Shown here in pieces: positions 17,164 through 33,106 of a stretch of DNA of 39,587 nucleotides. Where the stretch lies: NCBI GenBank assembly GCA_944324235.1, contig CALUVN010000018.1:1-39587 (forward strand), read 5' to 3'. This DNA comes from Candidatus Gastranaerophilales bacterium. GTDB taxonomy: Bacteria; Cyanobacteriota; Vampirovibrionia; Gastranaerophilales; Gastranaerophilaceae. The notes beneath the pieces were generated by a model. It saw only the letters and a list, made by a program, of their open reading frames with translations. It made no database searches and had not been told where the DNA came from. Position 1 is the stretch's first letter. Each line of letters starts with the position of its first letter. The position numbers and the translations under genes are program-made.

Positions 17164-17961
17164 CTAAGATTGTAAAATGTATGAAAAGTTTTTATCTTTG
17201 CTATATAAAAAAATGGTATTAAAACTTGATTTAAATTTATAATTAGATATTTTTCTTGTAAAAGAACAATAGTTTCCAATTCTGCTTGAAGGCACTGCAA
17301 TTAATAAATAGCACTCATCACATTGTGTTTTATATTGTTCAACTTTTTCATTCTTTTTATTTATATATGCTTGTAATTCATCAAAAGGATCAAATTTTAC
17401 CATCCCTGTATTATTAACATGACAATCATATTTTTCAGATGAAAATGAGTGGGAAGTAGCAACCGTTATTTGATAATATTCATTCTTGATTTGAATCCAT
17501 TGCTTAATAAAATATTTTTCTTTGATATTGTTAATATTATTAGAAATAAATTTTTTGATTTTTTCTCTGAATATTTTTTGAGGTGGTAATTTTGAAAAAC
17601 CTGGATTGTAAGATGCTTCAAAAATATCTTTCAAATGAAGACTATTTTTTCTTGGATCATATTTATCTATTATTATAGAAATAGAAAGATTATTTTCTTT
17701 TTTTATTTCTTGGCATATTTTATTTCCAATTCTAGTTAATATCCTAGAAAAGTCTAAGTGGTCGTGTTGAACATAAAAATTCGTAACTTCTATACCTAAA
17801 GTTCTGTTATCTTGAGTTTTTAGTAAAAAATCAGGTGATTCATGTTCTATTTTTTTTACAATTTTTTTTGTTAAACACCAGTTATTACCAGTGGTGGTAT
17901 TTAAAAAGTTATTTAATATTTGAATTTCTTCTTCTTTTTTTATTTTATTTTTATCTGCCAT
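17164..17961 (-). CDS. Candidate PD-(D/E)xK-like nuclease of the island
   Basis: A 265-residue protein not assigned to a named family. Near residues 44-61 it reads SPDFLLKTQDNRTLGIEVTNFY, which resembles the D...ExK core of restriction-type nucleases in spacing, but with T in place of the usual lysine. The middle is Lys/Asn/Ile rich, and the C-terminal part holds CDECYLLIAVPS. No membrane segment is seen. It is convergent with the recombinase fragment (10 nt apart). It has no ribosome site; a promoter with its -10 box 6 nt before the ATG predicts a leaderless message. The nuclease assignment is tentative. Confidence 0.6.
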   Translation of the reverse strand: MADKNKIKKEEEIQILNNFLNTTTGNNWCLTKKIVKKIEHESPDFLLKTQDNRTLGIEVTNFYVQHDHLDFSRILTRIGNKICQEIKKENNLSISIIIDKYDPRKNSLHLKDIFEASYNPGFSKLPPQKIFREKIKKFISNNINNIKEKYFIKQWIQIKNEYYQITVATSHSFSSEKYDCHVNNTGMVKFDPFDELQAYINKKNEKVEQYKTQCDECYLLIAVPSSRIGNYCSFTRKISNYKFKSSFNTIFLYSKDKNFSYILQS

Positions 17962-17967
17962 TTTAAA

Positions 17968-17996
17968 ACTATATTTAAATTAATCTTGTAAGTCAA
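17968..17996 (-). promoter_or_regulatory. Promoter predicting a leaderless transcript
   Basis: On the minus strand, -35 TTGACT (17991-17996), a 17-bp spacer and -10 TATAGT (17968-17973). Six bases then precede the ATG at 17961. No Shine-Dalgarno sequence is present. Confidence 0.65.
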
Positions 17997-18046
17997 ATTT
18001 CTTAGAGTTATATAATATATTGTTTTATAAGACAATATTAAATTTT

Positions 18047-18185
18047 AAAAGGACCTTTTTATTTGAAGAAAGAAAATTTGAGTAAAAAAATGAAATGCTC
18101 TTAGTTTTATCTGATAGCACACAGTGCGCAAATGTGCAGTATTTAAGATAGCGCAACCACTACGATGACTTGCAAAATTGTGATA
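18047..18185 (+). repeat. Island repeat copy A
   Basis: AAAAGGACCTTTTTATTTG, then GAAAGAAAATTTGAG, matches 30232 and 32350. A second block (18118-18183), with TGCGC, TTGC/GTGCA, ATAGCGC, AACC and ATGA.TTG..AAAATTG in order, matches 32446-32515. Similarity to copy C stops where C enters the ssrA-derived core. It lies in the gene-free spacer between two minus-strand genes. Confidence 0.7.
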
Positions 18186-18223
18186 TATTGTAGTTGAAAA
18201 ATGTACAAGGGGTTCTTAAAAAG

Positions 18224-21200
18224 TTAGTTCATAATAAGTTGATTAGAATTTGTTTTTTGACTTTTATCCCATTCATCACGAATTTGCAGTGCTTTAATTT
18301 TGATTTTTTCAACTAATTCATATTTTTTAACTTCATTAGATGTAGTAATAGAACTTTCTGGATAAATATTATATTCATTTAATTGTTGAATAATATACTC
18401 AATAGCTTTATTTTTATTTTTATAAAATTCACTTCCTCTAATTCTTATAAATTGCCACCCTAATCTTTCTAAAATAGTTTGTCGTTCCATATCTTTTCGT
18501 ATTTTTTCTTCACTACTATGAAACATTTCTCCATCACATTCTATAGCAATTTTTTTATCTTTATAACATATTACTAAATCTATTCTATAAGCTCCAACAG
18601 CCCATTGTTGTTTTATATTATAACCTTTTGCTACAAGAATAGAACACACTTCTTCTTCAAAAGGTGAATCTGCTTTTTCTCTTATTTCTTCTTGTCTGTG
18701 TATAAAATTATCTGGATTTTGCACATATTCAAGAAGTTGCTTTCTAAGATCATTACATTGTAAATCTTTATTTAGATCTAATGAATGTATTACCCACATT
18801 TGATCCTTAGCTCGGCTTGCTGCGACATTATATCGTTGTTTCCGAGATTGTCCTGCTCCTTCAGATGCTAATTTGAGTATTCCATCATCTTCATTGCTAT
18901 CAACTATTGATAGAAACATAACATCTCTTTCATCACCTTGAAAGCTTGAAGCATCCCCACATAATATTTTGTGATGTTCTATATCTGTAATATCTATCCA
19001 TTTTTGAATTAAAGATTGAATTTTTATAGCCTGTTCTTTTCCTAGTAAAGAAATAACTCCAATTGTTGAATTTTTGTATTCAGGAAGTTCTATGCAAGCT
19101 TTAATTAAACTTACAATAGTTAAAGCTTCTTCATTATTAATTTTCCCAATTCTTTGTCCATCAACTTTATAAGATATGGTTGGAGGACAAAGAATTGAAC
19201 TATTTGCTTCGCGTAAAGGCTTAATTTTGTAATCATATGATAATTTATTACTAAATCCTATTATTTGTGGTACGCATCTAAAATGTTCTTTTAACATTAA
19301 AGGTTGGAATGTTGTTCCAACAATGTCATATAATGAAGAATTTGCTTCATATAAGTGAGAAATAGGAATCACATTTTTGATATGTATATTTATTAAATTT
19401 TGTAGTTTTTCATTATTAATGCCTATTGCCATTGGACTTACCTGATTATCATCTCCTACAATAATAACCTTTTTTCCCATATATACTATTGATAAAGCTG
19501 TAACATCGGATTGACTTGCTTCATCTACAATTATTACATCAAATATATTTTCACCAGGTTTCAGTGTTTCTAAGGCTTTGTATATAGGCATTATCCATAC
19601 AGGAACTGATTTTTGACATTTTGTCATAAGTTTTTTCGCTTCTCTACGATACATAGGTGCGTTTTTACCAGTACCTTTACCTATTTTTTTTATTGTTTGT
19701 TTCCAACCTTGTAAGGCTTGTTGGATATCTAATTCAGCTTCGGTTTTTAATAGTAAATGATACCACGCACTATATTCACATAATTTTAAAGTTTTTTGGC
19801 GTAATTTTTTTCCAAAAAGTATATTTTGTTTTTGTAATTCATCTAAAGATTCAGCGTGAAGTTCTTCTAATTTATTTTCAAAATATTTATACTTCCAAGC
19901 TTCTTCAATATTGTTTGGGACATTTGATAATCCGTGAATGCCTTTTCTCTGTTTAATTTCAAATGCCCACTCTGGCGCATATTCATTTATTTTATTTAGA
20001 AGAATTTGGCGTATATTTTTTAAGTTTTGTTTATTATATATTATATTCAACTTGTTGAAAAAATCTTTATACTTTGCTGTATCATAGTGGTCAATAGCAT
20101 CTATTAAATTTTTCCATAAAGTAGAAGTATGTAAATTATTTTTTTGTATAATATTTTTTTGTTTTTGTAACTTTTGTTTTGTATCAGCTAGTTTTGTATA
20201 ATTATTAATAATTTCGAAATAATAAGGCCAATCAACGAAAAATTTAAAAAGTTTTTTTGTTTTAATAAATTCTGTATCAGTTAGTTCGTCAATATTTAAG
20301 ATCTTATTATAATCAAAACCGATGATATCTAATTCTTTTAAGATTTTAATGGTACAGTACTCATTAAAATTTATGTAGCGTATAATTTCATTTTTTAAAG
20401 ATAGTGCAAATTCTTCTGGTTTTTCCTTGTTATATATTTTAAATTTTGAGTAATTATTTTTTATAATAAGTGAATTTAAATATGTATTTAATTCTTCACG
20501 ATTTTTCTTTAAATCTAAATCCTTTATTACTATAATACAGTCTTCAAAAGAATTTATTTCTTTTCCATTTATTCTAAATCCATTTATAATATTTTTATAT
20601 TTAAGTTTATTTATCAAAGATAACTTTTTAGAGTTTTTTAAAAGTTCGACCATCTTTTCTAAGATAGATTTTAATGGATATAAACTTTCTATTGAAGTTT
20701 CTTTAAATTTGTATGTAATTTTTTTTCCTATAGATTGTACTTCAAGAGTTTCAGCACTACTAACAGTTTTTTCTATAAGTTTGATTAAGTTTAACCATTT
20801 TTCTCTATAATTTCCACCTTTTTTACCATCAATAGTTGCTTCAATTTTCCAAGAATCAATTTGTAGGTTTTTTAATAAATTTGTTATTGTGTTTAAATTA
20901 TCAATATTGATTTTATCTAATTTTATTTGATTATAGTTTATTTGTACATTTTTTTCTTGTTGTATTTTACTGATTCTATTTATTTTGTTTTTAATATCTT
21001 GTACTGTTTGATCAAAATCAATAGGTAAAAATAAAAAATCAAGATTTGTAAGATTTTTACATATATCAAGCTCGTCTTCGTTTTCTTTGGTTAATTCAAT
21101 ATTGCTTGAATATAATTGGCTTAATTCCTCCATTGTTAAAGGCATTATGCCGTTTGAATCCTTAATTAAATTGCCAGGAATTAAATTAGCTAAATTATTG

Positions 21201-22780
21201 TTATTTGAAATAAACTTTGCAGCCTCTAAAGGCGAATAGCCTTTACCATTGCATGTAATTACATCAAATTCTTTATTTCTAATGTTATATATTTTTTTTC
21301 GGATGTTTGTTAACTGATTTATTATTGCAGAACGTTCTTTTTTAATTTCTGTAATTTTATTTTTAAGTTCAAATGATGTATGCATAGACATATATTCTGT
21401 AATGCCATCTATAGATTTTTCCATATCTATATTTTTGTCATCTAAAAGTGAGACACAAAGATTTTGTAAACCTAGAGGAACTTTATCTTTTAAAACTTTT
21501 AAGGCTTTTTGTGTATGGCTTGTTACTAAAACATTTTTGCCTTGTGCTAAAAAATGACCTAATAAATTTGCAATAGTATGAGTTTTACCTGTTCCAGGAG
21601 GCCCCTGCACTAAAACTGCATTGTATTTTTCTATTCGTTTTGCAATTTCAAGTTGTTCTTTATTTGCTTCTTTTGCAAGTAAAATTTCTTCACTTTCTCC
21701 ACTTGTAGAGGCTAATAATTCAGTTATCGAGGGTTCTTCATTATCGTTTTCAATTTCTCGTTTACCTCCATTTACTAATTCTAAAATATGAGTGGGTATT
21801 TTATCTTCTTTTTCTATATTTTCAATAATTTGTTCAATGGTTTTTACACTACCGTCAATTCTTTTTCTTAAAAATAAAACGGGTTCAATTTTAATGAAGA
21901 TTTTATCATCATCATTTATGGTTTCATCTTTTTTGCTAATAAATTTACAGTATGAAGATAGTTTATGTGTTAAAGTCTCTAGATAATCATAGGTATTATT
22001 TCTATCTAGTGGATGATAAAATTGTTCTTTTAATTCAATACTTGCTTCTTTGAGTATATCAAAATTTATATCAGATGAATCAATATTATTCAAAATAGAA
22101 GTATATAGTTCGGGTTCAATCTCAGTATCTACTATTTTTATTGTGTTATTTTTAGAATCAAACTCAGTGGATACTCTTTTTAGTAAAATGGGATGTTTTA
22201 TATTTTTATTATCTCGTTGGTAAACCATTCCATTACCAAGCATAAGTTCAAAGGATTCAGAATCTCTTTCTAAATCTATATGTAACGTGTATAAAGTGTT
22301 AAAAAATTCTCTAGTTTTACTTATGATAAGTTGTTTTTCCACCCACTTATCACGTTCATTTTTCCACTTATCAAAAAGAAAAACTCTAGATTTATCAGAA
22401 TTAAAATAATTATAGACAGTTCCTGTAGATTTAGATATGGTCTTCTTTTCAATTAAAGAAATTTTTTTTTGATAATTATCCCATCCAGATTCGAGCCATT
22501 CGTTTAATTCATTTGGAGGAATAGGACATTTTTCAAATTCTGGTTTATGTACAACAATTAAATTATTATTAATTTCAATTGAAGAATCGTCAATAACACG
22601 ATCTCTATAAAAAACAAAAATATTTTTGTTATCTTCTGGTATGTTTTTATATAAATATTGCCATTCTTGTTTGTTAATATTTGTTATAGTATTTAATCGA
22701 AAACTACACAGATCTTTCAAATACTTATATAATGATAAAACTTTATTTTTATTATCATCATTAGCGTGTTCAATAACCAT
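18224..22780 (-). CDS. SF1 helicase with C-terminal Vsr/DUF559-like nuclease
   Basis: A 1518-residue probable phage-defence or nucleic-acid-processing enzyme. An N-terminal ~350-residue region of unknown fold precedes a DNA2/NAM7 (COG1112)-like superfamily 1 helicase. Walker A is VQGPPGTGKTHTIANLLGH (~395) and the DExx box is VIIVDEASQSDVTAL. GDDNQVSP and VAASRAKDQMWVIHSL complete the set. About 600 residues of Lys/Asn/Ile-rich, probably helical, insert separate the two helicase halves. The C-terminal ~110 residues are a Vsr-fold nuclease: SPFEEEVCSILVAKGY, YRIDLVI, IAIECDGEMFH, RLGWQFIRIRGSEFY. The helicase class resembles that of the Mokosh system, but that system uses other partner domains. 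It has no ribosome site and is predicted leaderless. Confidence 0.88.
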   Translation of the reverse strand: MVIEHANDDNKNKVLSLYKYLKDLCSFRLNTITNINKQEWQYLYKNIPEDNKNIFVFYRDRVIDDSSIEINNNLIVVHKPEFEKCPIPPNELNEWLESGWDNYQKKISLIEKKTISKSTGTVYNYFNSDKSRVFLFDKWKNERDKWVEKQLIISKTREFFNTLYTLHIDLERDSESFELMLGNGMVYQRDNKNIKHPILLKRVSTEFDSKNNTIKIVDTEIEPELYTSILNNIDSSDINFDILKEASIELKEQFYHPLDRNNTYDYLETLTHKLSSYCKFISKKDETINDDDKIFIKIEPVLFLRKRIDGSVKTIEQIIENIEKEDKIPTHILELVNGGKREIENDNEEPSITELLASTSGESEEILLAKEANKEQLEIAKRIEKYNAVLVQGPPGTGKTHTIANLLGHFLAQGKNVLVTSHTQKALKVLKDKVPLGLQNLCVSLLDDKNIDMEKSIDGITEYMSMHTSFELKNKITEIKKERSAIINQLTNIRKKIYNIRNKEFDVITCNGKGYSPLEAAKFISNNNNLANLIPGNLIKDSNGIMPLTMEELSQLYSSNIELTKENEDELDICKNLTNLDFLFLPIDFDQTVQDIKNKINRISKIQQEKNVQINYNQIKLDKINIDNLNTITNLLKNLQIDSWKIEATIDGKKGGNYREKWLNLIKLIEKTVSSAETLEVQSIGKKITYKFKETSIESLYPLKSILEKMVELLKNSKKLSLINKLKYKNIINGFRINGKEINSFEDCIIVIKDLDLKKNREELNTYLNSLIIKNNYSKFKIYNKEKPEEFALSLKNEIIRYINFNEYCTIKILKELDIIGFDYNKILNIDELTDTEFIKTKKLFKFFVDWPYYFEIINNYTKLADTKQKLQKQKNIIQKNNLHTSTLWKNLIDAIDHYDTAKYKDFFNKLNIIYNKQNLKNIRQILLNKINEYAPEWAFEIKQRKGIHGLSNVPNNIEEAWKYKYFENKLEELHAESLDELQKQNILFGKKLRQKTLKLCEYSAWYHLLLKTEAELDIQQALQGWKQTIKKIGKGTGKNAPMYRREAKKLMTKCQKSVPVWIMPIYKALETLKPGENIFDVIIVDEASQSDVTALSIVYMGKKVIIVGDDNQVSPMAIGINNEKLQNLINIHIKNVIPISHLYEANSSLYDIVGTTFQPLMLKEHFRCVPQIIGFSNKLSYDYKIKPLREANSSILCPPTISYKVDGQRIGKINNEEALTIVSLIKACIELPEYKNSTIGVISLLGKEQAIKIQSLIQKWIDITDIEHHKILCGDASSFQGDERDVMFLSIVDSNEDDGILKLASEGAGQSRKQRYNVAASRAKDQMWVIHSLDLNKDLQCNDLRKQLLEYVQNPDNFIHRQEEIREKADSPFEEEVCSILVAKGYNIKQQWAVGAYRIDLVICYKDKKIAIECDGEMFHSSEEKIRKDMERQTILERLGWQFIRIRGSEFYKNKNKAIEYIIQQLNEYNIYPESSITTSNEVKKYELVEKIKIKALQIRDEWDKSQKTNSNQLIMN

Positions 22781-22786
22781 ATATAA

Positions 22787-22795
22787 ATTATATCA
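22787..22795 (-). promoter_or_regulatory. Extended -10 promoter, leaderless helicase gene
   Basis: The minus strand reads TGATATAAT, an extended -10 (TGn-TATAAT), and then 6 nt before the helicase ATG at 22780. The -35 region is poor, as is usual for extended -10 promoters. No ribosome site exists between the box and the ATG. Confidence 0.6.
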
Positions 22796-22904
22796 TAAAA
22801 ATATAAAATAGAAGCTTTTTGTGAGTTACGTAATCAAATTAGAATATTTAGATTAGATCGAATAACAGTTTTAGAAGTCTTGGAATAACTCAATTTGGGT
22901 ATTT

Positions 22905-23768
22905 TTAATCTTTTATTAACTTTAGAGATAGTATGTATAAAAAAATATAGATGCAACAAATTTTTACACAAAATATGAAAATATGAAATTGCTGATGTAT
23001 AATTGTTGTTTCAATAAAAATGAATGTTATTAATTTTATAAAAAATATTATTAATTCTTTTGTAGTAACTGTTTGTGTTTCATTGCATTTCTTAGGTTTA
23101 TCTTTTTTTGTGCAATCATTATAATTATTTATAATTGTTTTATTAGTTGGGTTTATTGATAATGCATCTTTTAATAGTTCTTTTATTTGCTCATTTTTAC
23201 ATTTACGGTTATTTGCGTATAAAAATATTGCATAATTGTTGAGTGCTGTTTCATATAAAGGATTTAATCGTAAACTCTCTAGATATGATTTTTCTGCTAA
23301 ATTATATCTTTTAGTTTCAGCGTAAATATCAGCTAATGCACAATGGTAATGAGCATCTGTTGGTGCTAATTTTAATAAATAGATTATAAACTTTTCTGCT
23401 TTTTTATATTGTTTTAATTTTGATAATGATATTGTTATACAATATAGGGCAACTTCATTTTTAGGATTGATAGCCAAAATTGATTCTGCAGTTTTAATTG
23501 CGGAGTTGTAATCTGTCTTTAATACAAAAATTTGTGTGAGAATACCAAGATAAAGCTCATTTTCAGGGGAAAAACTTAAAGAAATTCGAATTTGTTCTTC
23601 TGCTAATTCATATTTTTGTAAATACGCATTTGCTATTGCCATTATAGAATATGCTCTAGCATCTGTTGGTAAACTTGTTAATATTTTACTTACTAATTTT
23701 ATTGCGAGCTGATACTTACCTAAATTTATTGCTGTATCAGCTCTTTTATACATTAAATCTATATCCAA
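22905..23768 (-). CDS. TPR protein with C-terminal membrane anchor
   Basis: A 287-residue protein. Residues ~1-200 hold about six tetratricopeptide repeats (for example AYSIMAIANAYLQKYELAEEQIRISLSFSPEN and the NPLYETALNNYAIFLYANN type), a protein-binding superhelix. The last ~60 residues are strongly hydrophobic (IIFFIKLITFIFIETTII and FIFCVKICCIYIFLYILSL), predicting two membrane spans. Its start lies 2 nt after the stop of the AAA+ ATPase gene, so the two are translated from one message and probably act together, the TPR protein tethering or feeding the ATPase at the membrane. No ribosome site of its own is obvious. Partnership is inferred from gene order. Confidence 0.85.
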   Translation of the reverse strand: MDIDLMYKRADTAINLGKYQLAIKLVSKILTSLPTDARAYSIMAIANAYLQKYELAEEQIRISLSFSPENELYLGILTQIFVLKTDYNSAIKTAESILAINPKNEVALYCITISLSKLKQYKKAEKFIIYLLKLAPTDAHYHCALADIYAETKRYNLAEKSYLESLRLNPLYETALNNYAIFLYANNRKCKNEQIKELLKDALSINPTNKTIINNYNDCTKKDKPKKCNETQTVTTKELIIFFIKLITFIFIETTIIHQQFHIFIFCVKICCIYIFLYILSLKLIKD

Positions 23769-23770
23769 AT

Positions 23771-24661
23771 TTAATCCCTTTTGTTTAAATAATTTAAAAC
23801 TGCATCATATAGTCCGCTTTGATTACTATATTTAACATAATTTTCAGCTGTTTGAAGCCATTCAAGTGTAGTTGGATAAACCTGTTTAATAGCATCTATT
23901 AAATCATTTGTAGTTATTGGTTCTTTTTTACCACTTTGTATTGCTTCTTTGATTTTTTTATCTATTGCTAGATTACACACAGCTACTATATCTGCAGCTG
24001 AATATTTGGCGGTGTGATACGCTAGTTTATTATAATCAATATTTGCAATAGGTTTACCGGACAAGAATATTTTAAAAATTTGATTACGTTCAGCATTATC
24101 AGGCGGTGGTACAAAAATTGTTTTATCAAATCTACCAGGTCTTCTAAGTGCGGTATCAACATACCAAGGTACATTTGTTGCGCCTAAAACCATAATTGAT
24201 GAATTATCAGATGAAAGTCCATCTAGTTCGTTTAAGAATTGATTAACAAGTGTTCTTGCATAAACATTATCACCTGTTCGCATTCTATCATTTCCTAATG
24301 CGTCAATTTCATCAATAAAAATGACAGCTGGCGATTTTCTTCTTGCTAATTCAAATGTTTCATGTAGTTTCCTTTCGGAGATTCCAACATGCATATCTAG
24401 AATATCAACAATTGATAAGTTTAAAAATGTTGCTCCGCATTCGTTTGCTGTTGCTTTGGCAATGTAAGTTTTGCCACAACCTGGAGGACCATATAATAAA
24501 ATTCCACCGCCAGCCTTTTTTCCATATTGGATGAATAGCTCTGGATTTTTAAATGGGTAGATGATATTGAGTTTAATTTCTTCTTTCAAATCTTCCATGC
24601 CACCAACATCATTAAATGTTATTGTAGATGTTTCAATAACTGATTCATAATCCTGTTCCAT
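23771..24661 (-). CDS. AAA+ ATPase (CDC48/FtsH-type module)
   Basis: A 296-residue single-module AAA+ protein that should remodel or unfold a protein target. It opens with TFNDVGGMEDLKEEIKLNI, typical of the CDC48/FtsH/Vps4 clade. Walker A is GPPGCGKT near residue 57, Walker B is VIFIDEIDALG, sensor 1 is GATNVPW, and the second region of homology is RRPGRFDK with arginine fingers. A short helical lid follows. There is no protease domain and no membrane span. AAGGAG lies 6 nt before the ATG. The palindromic operator at 24716 overlaps its promoter region (-10-like TATAAA at 24703-24708). It pairs with the TPR/membrane gene downstream. Confidence 0.92.
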   Translation of the reverse strand: MEQDYESVIETSTITFNDVGGMEDLKEEIKLNIIYPFKNPELFIQYGKKAGGGILLYGPPGCGKTYIAKATANECGATFLNLSIVDILDMHVGISERKLHETFELARRKSPAVIFIDEIDALGNDRMRTGDNVYARTLVNQFLNELDGLSSDNSSIMVLGATNVPWYVDTALRRPGRFDKTIFVPPPDNAERNQIFKIFLSGKPIANIDYNKLAYHTAKYSAADIVAVCNLAIDKKIKEAIQSGKKEPITTNDLIDAIKQVYPTTLEWLQTAENYVKYSNQSGLYDAVLNYLNKRD

Positions 24662-24712
24662 TTTAAACTCCTTATAATTTGTGTAAATCTGTAATAATTG
24701 TTTTTATATTAA

Positions 24713-24747
24713 CATAACAATATGACAAAAGTGGTCGTATTGTTGTG
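24713..24747. promoter_or_regulatory. Operator palindrome, copy 1
   Basis: AACAATATGAC and GTCGTATTGTT are arms of a near-perfect palindrome (one mismatch in 11) with a 7-nt AAAAGTG spacer (24716-24744). Similarity extends three bases further on each side with one further mismatch. The minus-strand TTGTCA of this palindrome sits where the AAA gene's -35 would be. A related copy is at 28324. The WYL regulator gene in the same island is a plausible binder. Confidence 0.7.
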
Positions 24748-24765
24748 TATTTTATCTGTCCGTTT

Positions 24766-24800
24766 TTGACATATGAATATTGTACAGTTATAATGTACAA
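24766..24800 (+). promoter_or_regulatory. Consensus promoter with palindrome over its -10
   Basis: -35 TTGACA (24766-24771), a 17-bp spacer and -10 TATAAT (24789-24794) are both perfect consensus. A second palindrome, TTGTACA-N7-TGTACAA (24780-24800), straddles the -10 box, so the promoter is probably strong and repressible. GTAC-N9-GTAC recalls cyanobacterial-type LexA sites, but the spacing differs. Confidence 0.8.
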
Positions 24801-24816
24801 ACTAGGAGTGATATTT

Positions 24817-25245
24817 ATGAAATTTTTAAAATTATTTGCAACGTTATCTTTAGTATTTTTTACACTTTCAGCATATGCCGGATCAATTGATTACGGATAT
24901 AATGCACATGGAGACTATGTTCCAACCTCTATCAATGGCAAAAGAGTTCAATATGGGTACAATGCTCGTGGCGATTATGTTCCTACTTCTATCGGTGGTG
25001 AAAGAATTCAGTATGGATATAATGGGCGAGGAGATTATGTTCCAACATCTATTGGTGGTGAAAGAATTCAATATGGCTATAATGCACGTGGTAATTATGT
25101 TCAAACATCTATAGGCGGACAACAAATTCAATATGGTTATAATGCACAAGGAAATTATGTTCCAACCGCTATTGGTGGAAGTCAAATCCAGTATGGTTAC
25201 AATGCTCTTGGTAATTATGTTCCAAAAGCTATTGGCGGATATTAA
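24817..25245 (+). CDS. Secreted 20-residue tandem-repeat protein
   Basis: A 142-residue protein with a standard signal peptide (MKFLKLFATLSLVFFTLSAYA, cleavage after AYA). After GSID it consists of about 5.9 tandem 20-residue repeats of the form YGYNARGDYVPTSIGGERIQ (60-nt period, from 24892 to 25242). Tyr, Gly and Asn positions are invariant, and the later copies drift (NYVPTAIGGSQIQ). The repeat should form an extended beta structure. GGAG lies 8 nt before the ATG at 24817. It is the only plus-strand gene in this block; its stop is 4 nt from the stop of the UvrD-RecB gene. Role unknown: envelope component, adhesin or accessory of the neighbouring module. Confidence 0.85.
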   Translation: MKFLKLFATLSLVFFTLSAYAGSIDYGYNAHGDYVPTSINGKRVQYGYNARGDYVPTSIGGERIQYGYNGRGDYVPTSIGGERIQYGYNARGNYVQTSIGGQQIQYGYNAQGNYVPTAIGGSQIQYGYNALGNYVPKAIGGY

Positions 25246-25249
25246 TCTA

Positions 25250-28200
25250 TTAAATTATATCTAACTTGCATAGATGTTTATAAGCACAATTTTTACACGC
25301 TCCATTTTTATCTTCTTTTATTGGATCAAATTGGAGTGTGTTTATTTTTTCATAAACTGATTTAATAAGGTTTTCGATATAATCCATATCTTCTTTTATG
25401 AGAGTTTTATAAACATTTTTGCTATGATTTTCAACATAAATTAAACCGACTTTTGAAACTTTTTTACCGGTTGCTTTTTCAAAAGCATATTTGTAAAAAC
25501 ATAATTGATTGTAATAATTTTCTTTATCTTCACCAATCGCAACTTTTCTTTCGCTTACAGGATTACCTGTTTTGTAATCATATAATTCATAAGTGTCATC
25601 AGAGTTTTTTTCAATCCTATCAATTTTTCCAGTTATTGTGTATTTATCAATTCCAATGCCATTAAAAGTATATTCAACTTCCGCTATTCTTGAAATTGGT
25701 ATTGACACAAAATGTGGATAATAACTGTTAATTAAGGATGTGCCTTGCTTCTCAAATTTTTCTTTCATTTCAGGTGAGGTAAATCTGGAATTATCCAAAC
25801 CTGTTTGAAGTTCTTTTTTAATTTCTTCTATTTCTGGGTATTTACCTGTCTGTTTTGCAATTTTTACTGCGTTTTCTAACAATTTGTGTATTGTAGAACC
25901 GTAGTTTGCATAATCCCAATCTCCTTCTTCGACATCTATTTCTAAGACTTTTAGGTAGAAGAATTTTCTCGGACACACAAGATAATCATTTAATCTGCTT
26001 GGAGAAAGCACGATATTTTTTACTCTTTCTTCAATTTCAGATTTGAAGGCATTTTTATTATCATAGACTTCTCTTGAAATACTTCTTACAAATTCCTTTG
26101 TAAAATCATCTTCTTTATAATCAAATTGTTGGCCGTCAAAATCATAATCCGTAAAATCAGCAAGATATTTTGTAATCTGCTGAGGTTTATTATCGCACAT
26201 ATCAGCAAATGATAGACAAAGTGAATGTTTTGCTCTGGTAATTCCAACAAATAGTAATTTTGTTAATTCACTATCTTTTTTCTCTTGTGCAGTAACTTTA
26301 TCATACACAGGCTCTGTAATTAATTTGTATTCACCTGGCATTCTAAAGTCTTCCCAACTTTTTGAAATCAAATTTGGAAGATAAACATATTCAAATTCTC
26401 TACCTTTAGATCCGTGATATGTAGTCAATTGTACGGCATTTTGGATTAATGTATCTTTATCAAGACAAATATCAATATCGTTTTGCAAACATTCATCTAA
26501 ATAGTCAACAAAATCAGAAATACCTGTTGTTAAATTAAGATTTGCAAAATCAGTAGCTTCTGCAAGAAGTTTTTTTATTCCTAACAAATTCTCACTACGG
26601 TTTAATTCTGTTTTATAATAATATTCTAAAATTCCTGTTCTGTTTAGAATTTCGATTATTGTATTTCTTAAATCATTCGTTACTGCGTATTCTTGTAAAT
26701 AGAAAAATGTATCTAGGAAGCTTTGAATTTTTTCAGGATTTTTCCAATTACTTAAAGTTTTCATCAATGAAATAAAATCTTTTGGCGTATCTTTTTTCAA
26801 TAATCTTTTTTCATGCAAAATTTTATTGTAATCTTCCAAGTCAATTTTAAAAGGCTCAGATAAAATTAGCCCGAATAATTTGTCACTTGATAAAAGGTAG
26901 TTATTTAAAGCTTTTAGATAAAAATATATAACGATTGATGATTTTATTGCAAAAATACTTTTGCCTTCATCTATTTGGAATGGAATGTTTTTTGATTTTA
27001 ATAATTCTCCAAATGTTTGTAATTCTTCACGTTTTTTCGCAATAATCGCAATTTGAGATAATTCTTCGGGACAATTTTCTGATTTAACTAATTTTTCAAT
27101 ATCTTCAGCAATGTAATTAAATTCTTGCAAAGTATCACCAAATTGCAATCTTTTTATTTTCTTATCTTTTTTTATGATTTGCTCTGATTTTGCAGTAAGT
27201 TTTTTATTAATATTTTTGGATTTGAATTTATCGTTATTTTCTAGTCTTGATTTATCTTGTTGGATAACTTCATAACTAAAATCAAGAATTGATTGAGTTG
27301 AACGGTTATTTTCTTCAAGGCAAATAACTTTTGTATCTGGATATTTGGTTAGGAAGTTTTCGATATTATCAGATTTAGCACCCTGAAAACCGTATATAAT
27401 TTGATCATCATCCCCTACTACTAAAATATTTTTATTATCGTTGCCTTCCATTAAGTGGAAAAGAATTTCATTTTGCAAATCGTTTGTGTCTTGGTATTCA
27501 TCGACAAGGAAATATTTATATTTGTTTGAAACTTCTCGTAAAAAAGTAATATCTTCTTCAAATGCAGAAAGCACAAACGTAATCATATCTGAAAAATCAA
27601 TAAGACTTAGTGAATACATTTTTTCAGAATATAATTCATATAATGTCCATAATTCTTTTGCTTTTTCAATATTAGTTTTTATTTTTTCTATTTCATCGTA
27701 TCTGCCTTTATTTCTTGTTTCTCCTCTTGATTCTCGCTCATAAATCTCAGCTTCAAGCTCTTTTATTCTCGGCATAAGAGTCGGATTGGTCTCAATTTGT
27801 TCAAAATAATCATTTCTTGTAATTCTTTGACTTTTAAGTTTTTCAATATATGATATGAATTTTCCGGCAAAATGATATTTATCAGCACGATTTGGGACAA
27901 AATATTCTAGGTTTGCTCTATCTATACAGTCTTTCATTAACTTAATTTTTTCTGTCTCAGTAATTAGTCTGACTCCAACCCCAAGAGAGAATTGTGACGG
28001 ATATAGCTTAATAATATCATTACAAAATGAGTGATATGTGTAGATATCTACAGAAGATGCAATAACTCCCATTTTTTTAACAAGTCTTTGTTTCATTTCG
28101 TTAGCTGCAGCATCGGAAAATGTAAGACACAAAATAGAGCTTGGTTCAATCCCTTCCGATAACATTTTTTCAATTCTATGAATTATAGTAAATGTTTTTC

Positions 28201-28288
28201 CTGTTCCTGGTCCTGCAAGGAGCATAATTGGTCCGTTTAAATTATCTATTGCTTCTTGTTGTTTTGTAGTTGGTTTTATTTCAGCCAT
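25250..28288 (-). CDS. UvrD/PcrA-type helicase fused to RecB-family nuclease
   Basis: A 1012-residue helicase-nuclease for DNA end processing or phage DNA attack. The SF1A helicase has LLAGPGTGKTFTIIHRIE (~25), TYHSFC, VDEYQDTN, GDDDQIIYGFQGA and TTYHGSKGREFEYVYLP, with FVGITRAKHSLCLSF as motif VI. The C-terminal ~250 residues are a PD-(D/E)xK nuclease of the RecB/AddB/Cas4 type: SPSRLNDYLVCPRKFFYLK, GKIDRI, ELYDYKTG, and CKNCAYKHLCK. The first Cys plus the last three could hold a 4Fe-4S cluster. GAGGAAG lies before the ATG. The operator palindrome at 28324 overlaps the promoter. The WYL gene precedes it on the same strand. Confidence 0.93.
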   Translation of the reverse strand: MAEIKPTTKQQEAIDNLNGPIMLLAGPGTGKTFTIIHRIEKMLSEGIEPSSILCLTFSDAAANEMKQRLVKKMGVIASSVDIYTYHSFCNDIIKLYPSQFSLGVGVRLITETEKIKLMKDCIDRANLEYFVPNRADKYHFAGKFISYIEKLKSQRITRNDYFEQIETNPTLMPRIKELEAEIYERESRGETRNKGRYDEIEKIKTNIEKAKELWTLYELYSEKMYSLSLIDFSDMITFVLSAFEEDITFLREVSNKYKYFLVDEYQDTNDLQNEILFHLMEGNDNKNILVVGDDDQIIYGFQGAKSDNIENFLTKYPDTKVICLEENNRSTQSILDFSYEVIQQDKSRLENNDKFKSKNINKKLTAKSEQIIKKDKKIKRLQFGDTLQEFNYIAEDIEKLVKSENCPEELSQIAIIAKKREELQTFGELLKSKNIPFQIDEGKSIFAIKSSIVIYFYLKALNNYLLSSDKLFGLILSEPFKIDLEDYNKILHEKRLLKKDTPKDFISLMKTLSNWKNPEKIQSFLDTFFYLQEYAVTNDLRNTIIEILNRTGILEYYYKTELNRSENLLGIKKLLAEATDFANLNLTTGISDFVDYLDECLQNDIDICLDKDTLIQNAVQLTTYHGSKGREFEYVYLPNLISKSWEDFRMPGEYKLITEPVYDKVTAQEKKDSELTKLLFVGITRAKHSLCLSFADMCDNKPQQITKYLADFTDYDFDGQQFDYKEDDFTKEFVRSISREVYDNKNAFKSEIEERVKNIVLSPSRLNDYLVCPRKFFYLKVLEIDVEEGDWDYANYGSTIHKLLENAVKIAKQTGKYPEIEEIKKELQTGLDNSRFTSPEMKEKFEKQGTSLINSYYPHFVSIPISRIAEVEYTFNGIGIDKYTITGKIDRIEKNSDDTYELYDYKTGNPVSERKVAIGEDKENYYNQLCFYKYAFEKATGKKVSKVGLIYVENHSKNVYKTLIKEDMDYIENLIKSVYEKINTLQFDPIKEDKNGACKNCAYKHLCKLDII

Positions 28289-28323
28289 TTATCTTCCTCA
28301 TTTCTGTAAGAAAATTATATTTG

Positions 28324-28352
28324 AACAATGTGACAAAAATGGTCGTTATTTT
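28324..28352. promoter_or_regulatory. Operator palindrome, copy 2
   Basis: AACAATGTGAC-AAAAATG-GTCGTTATTTT has the same left arm and the same 7-nt spacing as 24716-24744, with a weaker right arm. It lies 36-64 nt before the UvrD-RecB start and overlaps the last bases of the WYL gene. A -10-like TATAAT (minus strand, 28314-28319) is next to it. Read on the minus strand, both sites give TTTTGTCAYATTGTT and then ATATAA. Confidence 0.65.
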
Positions 28353-29313
28353 AATATTTTTCTAAATTTTCTTTCAAATAATTTTTGTATGCTTCTCTTA
28401 AATTTTTAGGCGCTAAAATTTCACAGTTTTTGCCCCATTTAAAAACATGCCACATAATTTCTTTATCTCCACTTGCTTTAAAGTTGACCAAAAGGTTTCC
28501 ATTTTCGTCTTTTTTTATTTTTTGTGTAGGATGAAATTTGTACTGTTCGGCATCATCTGCAACTTCTTTTGAAAATTTTAATTTAACGTCTAAAATTTCA
28601 CCTTGATAAACCCCAAAGGATTTATTTGAATATTCATCTAAATTAAATTTTGCTCTATCAAATTTATTGTTTGTTAATTCTAGTTTTTCAAACTTGTGTA
28701 AAAGATAGTTGTATATTCCATCTCCTTTAGCTTTTTCTCTAGCAATAAGATGGATTTTTTCACCGTAAATTATTCCAAGAGGTTCAATTAATCGCTCTTT
28801 ATTATGATAAATTCCCTTTAAAACGGTTGATTCTTTAATAGATTTTCTGACTAATTCAAACACGTCTAAACTTATTTTGTATTGAGGAGTTTGACGTACA
28901 GCTAATCCTTCTGTCTGTAAAATCATTTCAATATTATTTTCTAAATGAGTGATATTTTTTCTGTTTAGTGCTTTAATTTTTTCAACAGTTTTTGTAATTT
29001 CTTCAACTAGTTGAGGATTTTTCGTTAAGCTTTGCAACTGTTCTATGTTTGCAAGTTCTTTTGGTGAAAAAGAAATTAAATTGCTGATAGAAAAATTGGT
29101 AAATCCCCAATGTTTTTGGTTGTCATCGACTTCGATTTCATCAATTTGAGGGAAAATACAAGTTAAGCTATCTCGCATTCTTTCTGCAGTTCTTCTTGAA
29201 ACATTATATCTCTCGGCAATCTCAGATAATGTAACCCCTTGAATTTTTGATCCCATATAAACAGCTAAATCTAAAATATCTGAAACCCTTGAATATCTTG
29301 GTTTATCTTCCAT
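28351..29313 (-). CDS. WYL-domain transcriptional regulator
   Basis: A 320-residue regulator, length normal for the family. The N-terminal winged helix-turn-helix includes GVTLSEIAERYNVSRRTAERM. The middle holds the WYL-type ligand domain (KGIYHNKERLIEPLGIIYGEKIHLIARE), and the C-terminal part (EIMWHVFKWGKNCEILAPKNLREAYKNYL) is the WCX extension. WYL proteins such as BrxR and CapW control phage-defence operons and sense nucleic-acid signals. The start at 29313 is set by GAGGG; a TTG reading six codons longer exists. It is followed by the helicase-nuclease gene and shares that gene's strand. It is the likely repressor at the two palindromes, though its own promoter lacks that site. Confidence 0.92.
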   Translation of the reverse strand: MEDKPRYSRVSDILDLAVYMGSKIQGVTLSEIAERYNVSRRTAERMRDSLTCIFPQIDEIEVDDNQKHWGFTNFSISNLISFSPKELANIEQLQSLTKNPQLVEEITKTVEKIKALNRKNITHLENNIEMILQTEGLAVRQTPQYKISLDVFELVRKSIKESTVLKGIYHNKERLIEPLGIIYGEKIHLIAREKAKGDGIYNYLLHKFEKLELTNNKFDRAKFNLDEYSNKSFGVYQGEILDVKLKFSKEVADDAEQYKFHPTQKIKKDENGNLLVNFKASGDKEIMWHVFKWGKNCEILAPKNLREAYKNYLKENLEKY

Positions 29314-29469
29314 AAGCCCTCTTTCTTTCAATATTTTTGTTCAAAAGTAGTTCTTCATCACTTGCCAGTTAGGCTCTTACAAGTATGTATTTTGGGTTAC
29401 TGTTTATTTCGATACCCAGAAGTCTCATTCAAGTAACTTATCGTAAGACTTCTTAGACTGATTATACCA
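29314..29469 (-). promoter_or_regulatory. WYL gene promoter and structured ~140-nt leader
   Basis: Minus strand TGGTATAAT (29461-29469) is an extended -10. The leader that follows has an AGAAGTCT/AGACTTCT stem (29418-29425 with 29446-29453), a GGGT...ACCC stem and a CTTG...CAAG stem. I do not recognise a known riboswitch class in it. Confidence 0.45.
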
Positions 29470-29512: not shown

Positions 29513-29542
29513 ATAAGGGCTTTAATTGTTTAAAGCCCTTAT
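29513..29542 (-). terminator. Terminator of the zinc-ribbon gene
   Basis: ATAAGGGCTTTAA and TTAAAGCCCTTAT form a 13-bp stem with a 4-nt loop, 11 nt after the stop codon. The T run after it is weak. Confidence 0.7.
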
Positions 29543-29553
29543 AAATTAATATT

Positions 29554-29973
29554 TTAGTCAAAAACGGAGGTTGCACTACATCTTTCACTCTTTTTCAAGT
29601 TTTGCTTGTTTTCACGTATGTAATCTCGAATTTTGTGGTAATAATCACTTACTCTGTTAAAGGCAATTTTTTCATTGCAATTAAGACAATAAAATTTGAT
29701 AACGTGGCATCCTGAAAGAATTGATGCTCCGCAAAAATATGGGATTAATTCAGTTTTTCCACATATTGGACATTTTATTTTTGGAAAAATTGAGCTATTG
29801 ATTTCAAAAGATCCCAACCAAATAATTGCAACATCTAGAGGCATTCCCTCTTTAAATTCTAATTTGTCATCACTAGAAAAAATGTGAGGGTATAATTCTC
29901 CAACATTGTAGGCCTCTTTTGCCTCTGTAGTTTTGCACAATTCATCAGCTTCTGTTTTAGTTAAGTAATTTTT
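29554..29973 (-). CDS. SAM-riboswitch-controlled zinc-ribbon protein
   Basis: A 139-residue protein of unknown function. The N-terminal ~60 residues are acidic and helical, beginning MKNYLTKTEADELCK. Then KCPICGKTELIP and FYCLNCNEK provide two CxxC pairs about 30 residues apart, a likely zinc ribbon. The tail is basic and helical. The start at 29973 follows AAAGAGG; a longer reading to 30015 has no ribosome site. A SAM-I-type riboswitch lies upstream in the same transcript. The segment ATCTCTTT between the two could pair with the AAAGAGG ribosome site, suggesting translational control. It sits at the outer edge of the defence block. Confidence 0.7.
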   Translation of the reverse strand, partial: KNYLTKTEADELCKTTEAKEAYNVGELYPHIFSSDDKLEFKEGMPLDVAIIWLGSFEINSSIFPKIKCPICGKTELIPYFCGASILSGCHVIKFYCLNCNEKIAFNRVSDYYHKIRDYIRENKQNLKKSERCSATSVFD

Positions 29974-30026
29974 CATTCTTACCTCTTTCTTTTTTGAGTA
30001 CCAACATACCCACAAAGAGATACTTT

Positions 30027-30108
30027 ACTCATCATACAAGCTTTAGCACCTGATTTAATAGGTTGCTGTACGATCATCGGGCTTGTCCCTAGCGTACTCT
30101 TTATGAGT
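30027..30108 (-). ncRNA. SAM-I (S-box) riboswitch
   Basis: On the minus strand, P1 is ACTCAT/ATGAGT. The element then reads AAAGAG, GTACG, CTAGGGACAAGCCCGATGAT, CGTAC, AGCAACC, a loop, and AGGTGCTAA. These match the S-box core (GGGAC..GCCCGATGA, GCAACC, GGTGCTAA), and P2 (GTACG/CGTAC) and P3 (ACCT/AGGT) both pair. It precedes the zinc-ribbon gene by about 55 nt. A minus-strand extended -10, TGATATACT (30115-30123), places the transcription start near the first base of P1. Confidence 0.88.
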
Positions 30109-30114
30109 ATTGAT

Positions 30115-30123
30115 AGTATATCA
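30115..30123 (-). promoter_or_regulatory. Extended -10 promoter of the riboswitch gene
   Basis: TGATATACT on the minus strand lies about 7 nt before P1 of the riboswitch. The -35 is weak. Confidence 0.5.
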
Positions 30124-30380: not shown

Positions 30381-30390
30381 ATTTATAAAT

Positions 30391-30424
30391 ACTGGAGACA
30401 GTGGGAGTCGAAACAATGTCCAAA
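30391..30424 (-). repeat. Degenerate copy of the ssrA 3' end
   Basis: ACTGGAGACAGTGGGAGTCG, then AAACAATGTCCAAA, matches 32710-32743 (ACTGGAGACGAGGGGAGTCG, then AACCCCTGTCCAAA) with substitutions in the acceptor/T-arm positions. It is not long enough to be a functional tmRNA. It looks like a remnant attachment site. Confidence 0.75.
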
Positions 30425-32349: not shown

Positions 32350-32526
32350 AAAAGGACTCTTTTTATTTGCCAAAAGAGAATTTGCGATTCCTTAACTCAA
32401 AATTCTCTAAATTCTCTCTTTCTAAATTCTCTTAATTTCACTAAATTACGTACTGCGCGCGTATTTGCACTATATAAAATAGCGCTAACCCTTGCTATGA
32501 TTGGTAAAATTGGAGACGAGGGGAGT
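32350..32526 (+). repeat. Island repeat copy C ending in ssrA core
   Basis: AAAAGGACTCTTTTTATTTG and AGAGAATTTG match copies A and B; the block at 32446-32515 matches A. It ends in TGGAGACGAGGGGAGT (32511-32526), identical for 16 nt to the ssrA 3' end at 32711-32726, exactly 200 nt away in the same orientation. The 16-mer is the likely crossover core of an earlier insertion. Confidence 0.8.
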
Positions 32527-32620
32527 GTCTTGGTCGCTCGCATTTAACGGCAATTCCGCGATTTGTAGCGGGTTTTCAACCCTTACAAATCGGCTTCAGC
32601 CTCAGCTCGCTCCCGCTCGA

Positions 32621-32649
32621 CCCCCTGACAAGACTTTGTCTTGTAGGGG
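32621..32649. repeat. GC-richer hairpin in the post-ssrA spacer
   Basis: CCCC-CTG-ACAAGAC-TTT-GTCTTGT-A-GGGG. It lies in a locally GC-rich stretch (32530-32650) unlike its AT-rich surroundings. The stretch contains CTCGCTCCCGCTCGACC, the complement of the AGAGCGGGAGCG type found at 39449. Confidence 0.5.
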
Positions 32650-32668
32650 TTCTCAATTTCACAATCTT

Positions 32669-32711
32669 AGTAATAAAAAAGGACTACCTAAAGCAGTCCT
32701 TTTTTATTACT
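32669..32711 (-). terminator. Terminator of ssrA
   Basis: AGTAATAAAAAAGGACT and AGTCCTTTTTTATTACT form a perfect 17-bp stem with a 9-nt loop. It begins directly at the tmRNA 3' end and ends in a T run on the minus strand. Confidence 0.93.
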
Positions 32712-33106
32712 GGAGACGAGGGGAGTCGAACCCCTGTCCAAAATGGATCTAAACAAACTTCTACGAGTGTAGATACTTATTTTCTCAACTGATTCGGGAA
32801 AGTATCATTACCCTTAAATCAGCCCTAGGTTTTATTTGAGGGAAACTCTAAACCCTTGACGGTTATCTTGATACCGCTACCGTCATCGCGGTACTGCGGC
32901 TTGCATAATGGACCCATATCGCCGGCAAGCTGGGCTATATGAGTAGCTAATTAGCGACTACGCAGCCAATGCATATGCTCTTGGGCTGAAGTCTGCTTTA
33001 ATTACATTGTTAGCATTTAATTTAGTTTGCTCGTTGATAACCGAGAACAGCGCTCGGACTCGCAGCCTGTTTCAATCTGGCATCCTGTCAAATCCAAAAC
33101 GTCCCC
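32711..33106 (-). ncRNA. ssrA: Transfer-messenger RNA (tmRNA)
   Basis: It rescues stalled ribosomes and tags the unfinished protein for degradation. The 5' end GGGGACG (33100-33106) pairs with CGTCTCC at 32712-32718, and the T arm GGGGTTCGACTCCCC is next to it. The 5' side reads TTTTGGATTTGACAGG, the tmRNA signature. The tag reading frame runs from GCT at 33014 to TAG at 32958 and encodes ANNVIKADFSPRAYALAA, ending in the proteolysis signal ALAA. CCA is not encoded after the discriminator A. Length is about 396 nt, in one piece. Its 3' end is the apparent insertion target of the island. Confidence 0.97.

Follow-up and report, generated by a model that had tools for sequence, protein, structure and literature searches.

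A SAM-I riboswitch ahead of a zinc-ribbon accessory gene in a Gastranaerophilales bacterium

Few riboswitches have been studied as well as SAM-I, which is regarded as a regulator of the methionine pathway. In the SAM-I riboswitch of the Xanthomonas campestris met operon, the Shine-Dalgarno (SD) sequence is sequestered without SAM and is freed by uncharged initiator tRNA (PMC7270179). Across the RF00162 family as a whole, a recent model reported no significant covariation between aptamer and expression platform (PMC13273304). In the open-access literature, we found no report of SAM riboswitches in Melainabacteria or of SAM-I on phages.

Here, we describe a SAM-I riboswitch that precedes a gene for a small zinc-ribbon protein in a 39,587-nucleotide stretch of DNA from a Candidatus Gastranaerophilales bacterium (contig CALUVN010000018.1; the whole stretch analysed is called the window). 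We consider it very probable that this riboswitch belongs to a SAM-I subtype of accessory and mobile genes, one that would switch the zinc-ribbon protein off at high SAM and on as SAM falls. A whole bacterial family that carries SAM-I only on accessory genes, with recognisable copies in phage genomes, gives this familiar riboswitch an unfamiliar setting.

The aptamer and the gene behind it

The window was searched with cmscan (Infernal, Rfam 15). A full-length match to RF00162 (model positions 1-108) lies at 30109..30026 on the minus strand and scores 55.9 bits (E 2e-10) against a gathering score of 44.4 bits. No second SAM-I riboswitch was found in the window or elsewhere in the 1.94-Mb genome. 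The features of the aptamer and its gene are as follows.

30115..30120, minus strand: -10-like hexamer TATACT just 5' of the aptamer (from sequence, weak evidence)
30026..30109, minus strand: SAM-I riboswitch aptamer with reduced P4 (cmscan match to RF00162 above gathering)
30081..30085, minus strand: pseudoknot strand CAAGC in the P2 loop (pairing with 30041-30037)
30037..30041, minus strand: pseudoknot strand GCUUG (pairing with CAAGC of the P2 loop)
30026..30032, minus strand: P1 3' strand ATGAGTA (pairing with 30109-30103)
29554..29976, minus strand: controlled gene, a 140-aa zinc-ribbon protein with two CxxC pairs, stop codon included (ORF)
29513..29542, minus strand: inverted repeat ATAAGGGCTTTAA-ACAA-TTAAAGCCCTTAT, 3' of the gene (from sequence)

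The original prediction, made from the letters alone, had named an S-box core with P1-P3 and proposed an Infernal search with RF00162 as its check. Both held: the covariance score is good rather than poor, and the core (AAGAG, GGGAC..GCCC..AUGA, GCAACC and GGUGCUAA) is present together with P1-P3. An alignment shows the SAM-binding core (J1/2 AAGAG, GCAACC, AGGUGC) to be conserved in the window aptamer and its relatives. The window aptamer can also form the pseudoknot between the P2 loop and J3/4 (CAAGC/GCUUG), and by inspection this pairing covaries in relatives (CAGGC/GCCUG in L027 and L029, CUAAGC/GCUUAG in L039). In the tandem G-A pairs of the P2 kink-turn, the window aptamer has U for the first G (GCUAGGG), where most relatives read CGAGGG with GA/UGA. 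This U is mainly common to the window copy and its two closest relatives, and it could make for a weaker aptamer. Judged by sequence and predicted structure, the window's element is a genuine SAM-I riboswitch, and we infer that it binds SAM. Upstream, TAnnnT occurs at a comparable position in 21 of 37 related leaders, and the transcript probably starts at the aptamer.

The controlled gene begins at ATG 29976. It had been described as encoding a 139-residue protein with two CxxC pairs; the pairs are there, and the length is 140 aa. C69xxC72 and C97xxC100 are invariant in an alignment of 13 members. The earlier statement that this is not a methionine gene also stands, as the ORF encodes a zinc ribbon with no metabolic homology. 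Because dN/dS was 0.14 (against the G123 homologue), 0.42 and 0.11 in three pairs, the gene is judged to be maintained under purifying selection. The protein matched no family above cut-off in Pfam, NCBIfam, PADLOC (0 families) or PHROGs. Its AlphaFold2 model (pLDDT 89, pTM 0.85) found no Foldseek match at E<=0.001 in the PDB or a viral library, and a fold search gave generic zinc-ribbon matches only, the best to NrdR (Z 3.8). NrdR, RNA polymerase and Cren7 were not counted as relatives. Behind the gene, the inverted repeat has a poor U tail and was not called by the terminator scan; it probably marks the end of the transcript.

Alternative helices in the leader

Between the aptamer and the start codon, the leader carries an element, here called E, that can pair in two directions.

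30097..30109, minus strand: aptamer 5' arm TACTCATAAAGAG, the P1 5' strand plus J1/2 (13/13 complementary to E; covariation in 36 leaders)
30014..30022, minus strand: anti-SD segment TATCTCTTT (duplex with AAAGAGGTA, -10.1 kcal/mol)
30007..30019, minus strand: element E, CTCTTTGTGGGTA, its 3' half anti-P1 and its 5' half anti-SD (complementarity)
29981..29988, minus strand: SD region AAAGAGGT, 4 nt upstream of the ATG (pairs with the anti-SD)

The original prediction had pointed to a possible pairing of ATCTCTTT with AAAGAGG that would hide the ribosome site. This pairing is real, with a duplex energy of -10.1 kcal/mol where shuffles average -4.2, and it is formed by the 5' half of E and the bases that precede it. 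What the prediction had missed is a second covarying helix, needed for a switch, in which the aptamer's 5' arm and E are perfectly complementary over 13 nt, two G-U pairs included.

Across 36 leaders, the pairing of arm and E holds in 389 of 455 cells. When E was permuted among the 27 unique rows, the observed value was reached in 0 of 20,000 permutations, and the P1 half of E alone, which is not SD-like, gave the same result (0/20,000); with eight class representatives, p was 2e-4. These p-values overstate the evidence because the leaders are related rather than independent. The letters themselves change in step. P1 differs between gene classes (ACTCAT, ACCTAT) and E tracks it (AUGAGU, AUAGGU), and within the core the series AUAAAG, AUAGAG, AUGGAG is matched in E by CUUUAU, CUCUAU, CUCCAU (L050, L096, L106, L098). 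The last of these loci (L098, 2489-2642) has an aptamer with a very long P3 extension of ~60 extra bases and retains the covarying AUGGAG/CUCCAU pair.

A duplex of E with the SD is possible in every tabulated leader. It exceeds shuffles in 21 of 35 and lies within the shuffle range in the other 14, mainly of the class we call MEQQ. Here, too, both sides change together, in phage loci (GTCCTC/GAGGAC in L136, TATGCTC/GAGCATA in L135) and in a further covarying pair, ACGCTC/GAGCGT. Element E was absent from the leaders of the excisionase-like class (L038, L039).

The anti-SD/SD helix and the anti-anti-SD helix are thus mutually exclusive and both supported by covariation, the arrangement of a translational SAM-OFF switch. 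With SAM bound, P1 would form and leave E free to pair with the SD, so that translation is off. Without SAM, the 5' arm (the P1 strand plus AUAAAGAG) would capture E and expose the SD, so that translation is on. The predicted logic is off at high SAM and on at low SAM, a direction that we infer from the two helices. For the window RNA, RNAfold gave -36.4 kcal/mol for the state with arm and E paired and -33.7 for the aptamer with E on the SD, a difference of 2.7 kcal/mol in which SAM and pseudoknot energy are not counted. With the two states this close, the energy of the ligand and the pseudoknot could decide between them. Folded without constraints, the predicted ON state still has some of the SD region weakly structured.

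By inspection, many relatives also carry an intrinsic terminator with a 5' arm able to pair with the P1 3' strand, which would add a second lock, on transcription. No such terminator was found in the window's copy, which has the translational lock only. An element complementary to the 5' arm also lies near the start codon in 2 of 10 canonical leaders from the same phylum (metH, L113; metK, L126), and the platform is therefore not unique to accessory genes. From this comparison, it is probably an older translational SAM-I design rather than an invention of these mobile elements.

Gene associations, mobile context and purpose of the switch

The gene and the riboswitch go together wherever we found the gene. 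Among 288 genomes of the family, 13 contain strong homologues of the zinc-ribbon protein (14 in all), and each of the 14 is immediately preceded by RF00162 in the same orientation. In 84,980 species genomes there were 20 loci, every one with an RF00162 match above gathering just upstream. The combined scans comprise 21 distinct loci, and in 21 of 21 the riboswitch lies directly upstream; whether homologues keep it had been raised as a check on the original prediction, and no homologue free of a riboswitch appeared. Where taxonomy was stated, the 20 loci belong to Gastranaerophilales/Melainabacteria or to uncultured cyanobacteria MAGs, several of them sampled from the rumen or other gut environments. 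When 292 genomes from across the phylum were sampled, the protein turned up in the family Gastranaerophilaceae only, and no homologues were found in viral contigs. At four loci (L056, L060, L062, L066), a DUF2130 gene lies directly 3' of the zinc-ribbon gene, and there the two possibly form one operon; DUF2130 genes also occur near IS1595-type riboswitch loci.

Same-class relatives carry the riboswitch on metK, which would fit a rearrangement that left a metK riboswitch next to a gene it has nothing to do with. The 21/21 association, the covarying expression platform and purifying selection all stand against such a leftover. We dropped this explanation on the conserved association and regard it as extremely improbable.

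The same genomes show what else the riboswitch precedes. All 32 SAM-I riboswitches above cut-off in the 288 family genomes lie ahead of accessory, non-methionine genes, and none ahead of metK. By class, read from the downstream ORF, the targets are the zinc ribbon (14), the MEQQ protein (9, the ninth at L084), FGase (PF05013; 3), an IS1595-type transposase (PF12762; 3), a short excisionase-like protein (2) and a phage-type protein (1). The structure model of the MEQQ protein is of low confidence (pLDDT 70), and the phage-type family has no match in PHROGs. In the rest of the phylum, riboswitches precede metK, metH, metX-like and glutamine amidotransferase genes, as read from the proteins. The window's own genome has a metK without a riboswitch, and neither the MetE catalytic domain nor the MetH activation domain, the two that were searched, had a match in it. 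For this reason the host is probably a methionine importer, in which SAM tracks imported methionine. Most likely, the accessory or mobile genes are released when methionine or SAM runs low in such a host.

The zinc-ribbon protein might simply aid methionine/SAM homeostasis through salvage, import or zinc-saving, under a normal feedback switch. Canonical SAM-I switches do work as feedback, one accessory class is an N-formylglutamate-amidohydrolase-like enzyme that might salvage formyl-methionine, and methionine synthases were not detected in the host. On the other hand, strong matches to the gene occur in only 13 of 288 family genomes, it has no metabolic homology, and elsewhere the subtype sits ahead of transposases and phage genes. 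We hold ordinary metabolic control as a tentative explanation.

Mobile DNA carries the subtype as well. Pattern scans of IMG/VR yielded ten contigs with it, seven of them confirmed by cmscan, and the readable genes behind these riboswitches encode small unknown proteins or belong to the IS1595 class. The genome of Ruminococcus phage NatCom_28274, which is listed as complete, has the riboswitch (59.9 bits) ahead of a hypothetical protein near a DNA methyltransferase. Elsewhere it sits in a tail operon beside Baseplate_J (L134), where the riboswitch and a 91-aa gene are inserted within the phage operon (4200-4644). The L135 copy adjoins a terminase and a C5 DNA methylase, and a D12 methylase is present on L129. 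Within the family, a Mu-type transposase gene follows immediately after the MEQQ gene in G239 and G076; in G159 the MEQQ gene has Cas9 as a neighbour, and in G100 it is flanked by GmrSD and a DNA methylase. The leader had no match in PLSDB plasmids. One further record labelled Bacteriophage sp. (L133, MT835503) has trpB-like and glutamate-dehydrogenase-like genes and a riboswitch before a 114-aa unknown gene; it is probably a bacterial contig.

SAM is the substrate of DNA methylation. Counter-defence, or a balance of restriction and modification, would have a Lar-like zinc ribbon or another small protein made when SAM is too low for protective methylation. Phage-borne members do lie near DNA methyltransferases (L129, D12; L132; L135, C5), yet methyltransferases are common on phages. 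The zinc ribbon resembles Lar weakly (best E 0.0014, in 10 of 13 members), but the window protein reaches 17.2 bits where the NCBIfam cut-off for TIGR03655 is 39.6. MqsA is defined by a zinc domain and an HTH-XRE domain beside an MqsR toxin gene; the protein shows similarity to the zinc domain (E 1e-4) and no HTH match. Both scores are well short of the curated cut-offs and could stem from the CxxC pattern alone. We find this account rather doubtful.

The presence of the subtype on phages and prophages suggests that the sensor is a tool of mobile elements at least as much as of host defence, and it appears that part of the mobile DNA senses host SAM levels. One possible extension, put forward tentatively, is that phages, prophages and islets of gut bacteria share a mobile SAM-I module that releases small effectors when SAM drops. 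The effectors could be restriction-alleviation, counter-defence or defence proteins, and SAM could drop through starvation, through competition from methyltransferases or through a SAM-degrading enzyme of a rival phage. A family with SAM-I on accessory genes only, together with the copies in phage genomes, makes it testable whether mobile elements monitor SAM to time accessory genes.

The window itself had been placed at the edge of a defence island. Nearby genes do match defence-type models (WYL, UvrD/PD-DExK, an IetA-like AAA, a helicase-nuclease), and the zinc-ribbon gene adjoins WYL, UvrD-nuclease and HipA genes, the HipA neighbour having matched through generic PDC-M03A models. No complete known system was shown, however, and the riboswitch unit looks monocistronic. 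Because the zinc-ribbon gene ends before the inverted repeat (29542-29513), there is no sign that the riboswitch controls the defence-type genes. Given this repeat, we also gave up the idea of a switch driving the entire defence cluster.

An infection sensor in a defence island, which the original prediction had raised as speculation, would open as SAM-degrading phage enzymes or a burst of DNA methylation lowered SAM, with the zinc-ribbon protein as the defence. The defence-type neighbours fit this, as do related loci near Cas9 (G159), GmrSD with a DNA methylase (G100) and DUF4007 (G254). Yet the riboswitch and its gene look like a unit apart from their neighbours, phages and prophages themselves carry the subtype, and the zinc-ribbon protein has no PADLOC, Pfam or NCBIfam match above cut-off. 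We think this role unlikely. For the purpose of the switch, we would place nutrition first, counter-defence second and defence third.

Several other observations concern the neighbourhood. The WYL regulator, UvrD-PD-DExK fusion, IetA-like AAA with TPR and 1518-aa helicase-nuclease (MTES_1575) form a cluster at 17164-29331, which may be an undescribed defence cluster; relatives of the TPR and AAA genes recur near G123. A secreted-looking protein with repeated YGYNAHGDYVPTSIGG units is encoded at 24793-25245, and relatives of it lie near several riboswitch loci (cluster C5, 7 loci). At 0.3 kb from the zinc-ribbon gene, the 3' end of tmRNA recurs as a degenerate copy. The repeat (30390-30413 and 32708-32731, 2 mismatches in 22 specified bases) flanks the HipA gene and an HTH gene, and it resembles an attachment-site repeat bounding an islet of 2.3 kb at the tmRNA gene. 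A second ARAGORN tmRNA call, of the permuted type (32394-32801), shares bases with the real tmRNA (33106-32708); we take it for a probable artefact.

Comparison with described zinc ribbons and riboswitches

The zinc-ribbon protein is close to no described family. Its best structural alignment, to an NrdR-type zinc ribbon, covers residues 65-108 (Z 3.8, rmsd 2.0 A over 44 residues); it lacks the ATP cone of NrdR, and a Z under 8 means that only the zinc-ribbon arrangement is shared. With Lar (TIGR03655/PF14354) and the MqsA/YgiT zinc domain it has in common a CxxC...CxxC zinc ribbon and weak profile similarity, whereas it adds an N-terminal part of ~65 residues and a C-terminal helix and has no HTH. 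Our best guess, from this Lar- or MqsA-like zinc domain, is a modulator that binds nucleic acid or protein.

Compared with SAM-I as modelled in RF00162, the riboswitch has the same core sequence, P1-P3 and pseudoknot and a covariance score above gathering. It differs in governing a zinc-ribbon accessory gene rather than methionine or SAM genes, in a P4 that is nearly gone (17 model positions are missing there) and in the U at the first kink-turn G. Like the SAM-I riboswitch of the X. campestris met operon, it appears to be a translational SAM-OFF switch with an anti-SD element; unlike that switch, it is predicted to use the 5' arm of its own aptamer to capture the anti-SD. In contrast to the RF00162-wide model (PMC13273304), the covarying helix between 5' arm and anti-SD offers a concrete coupling of aptamer and expression platform.
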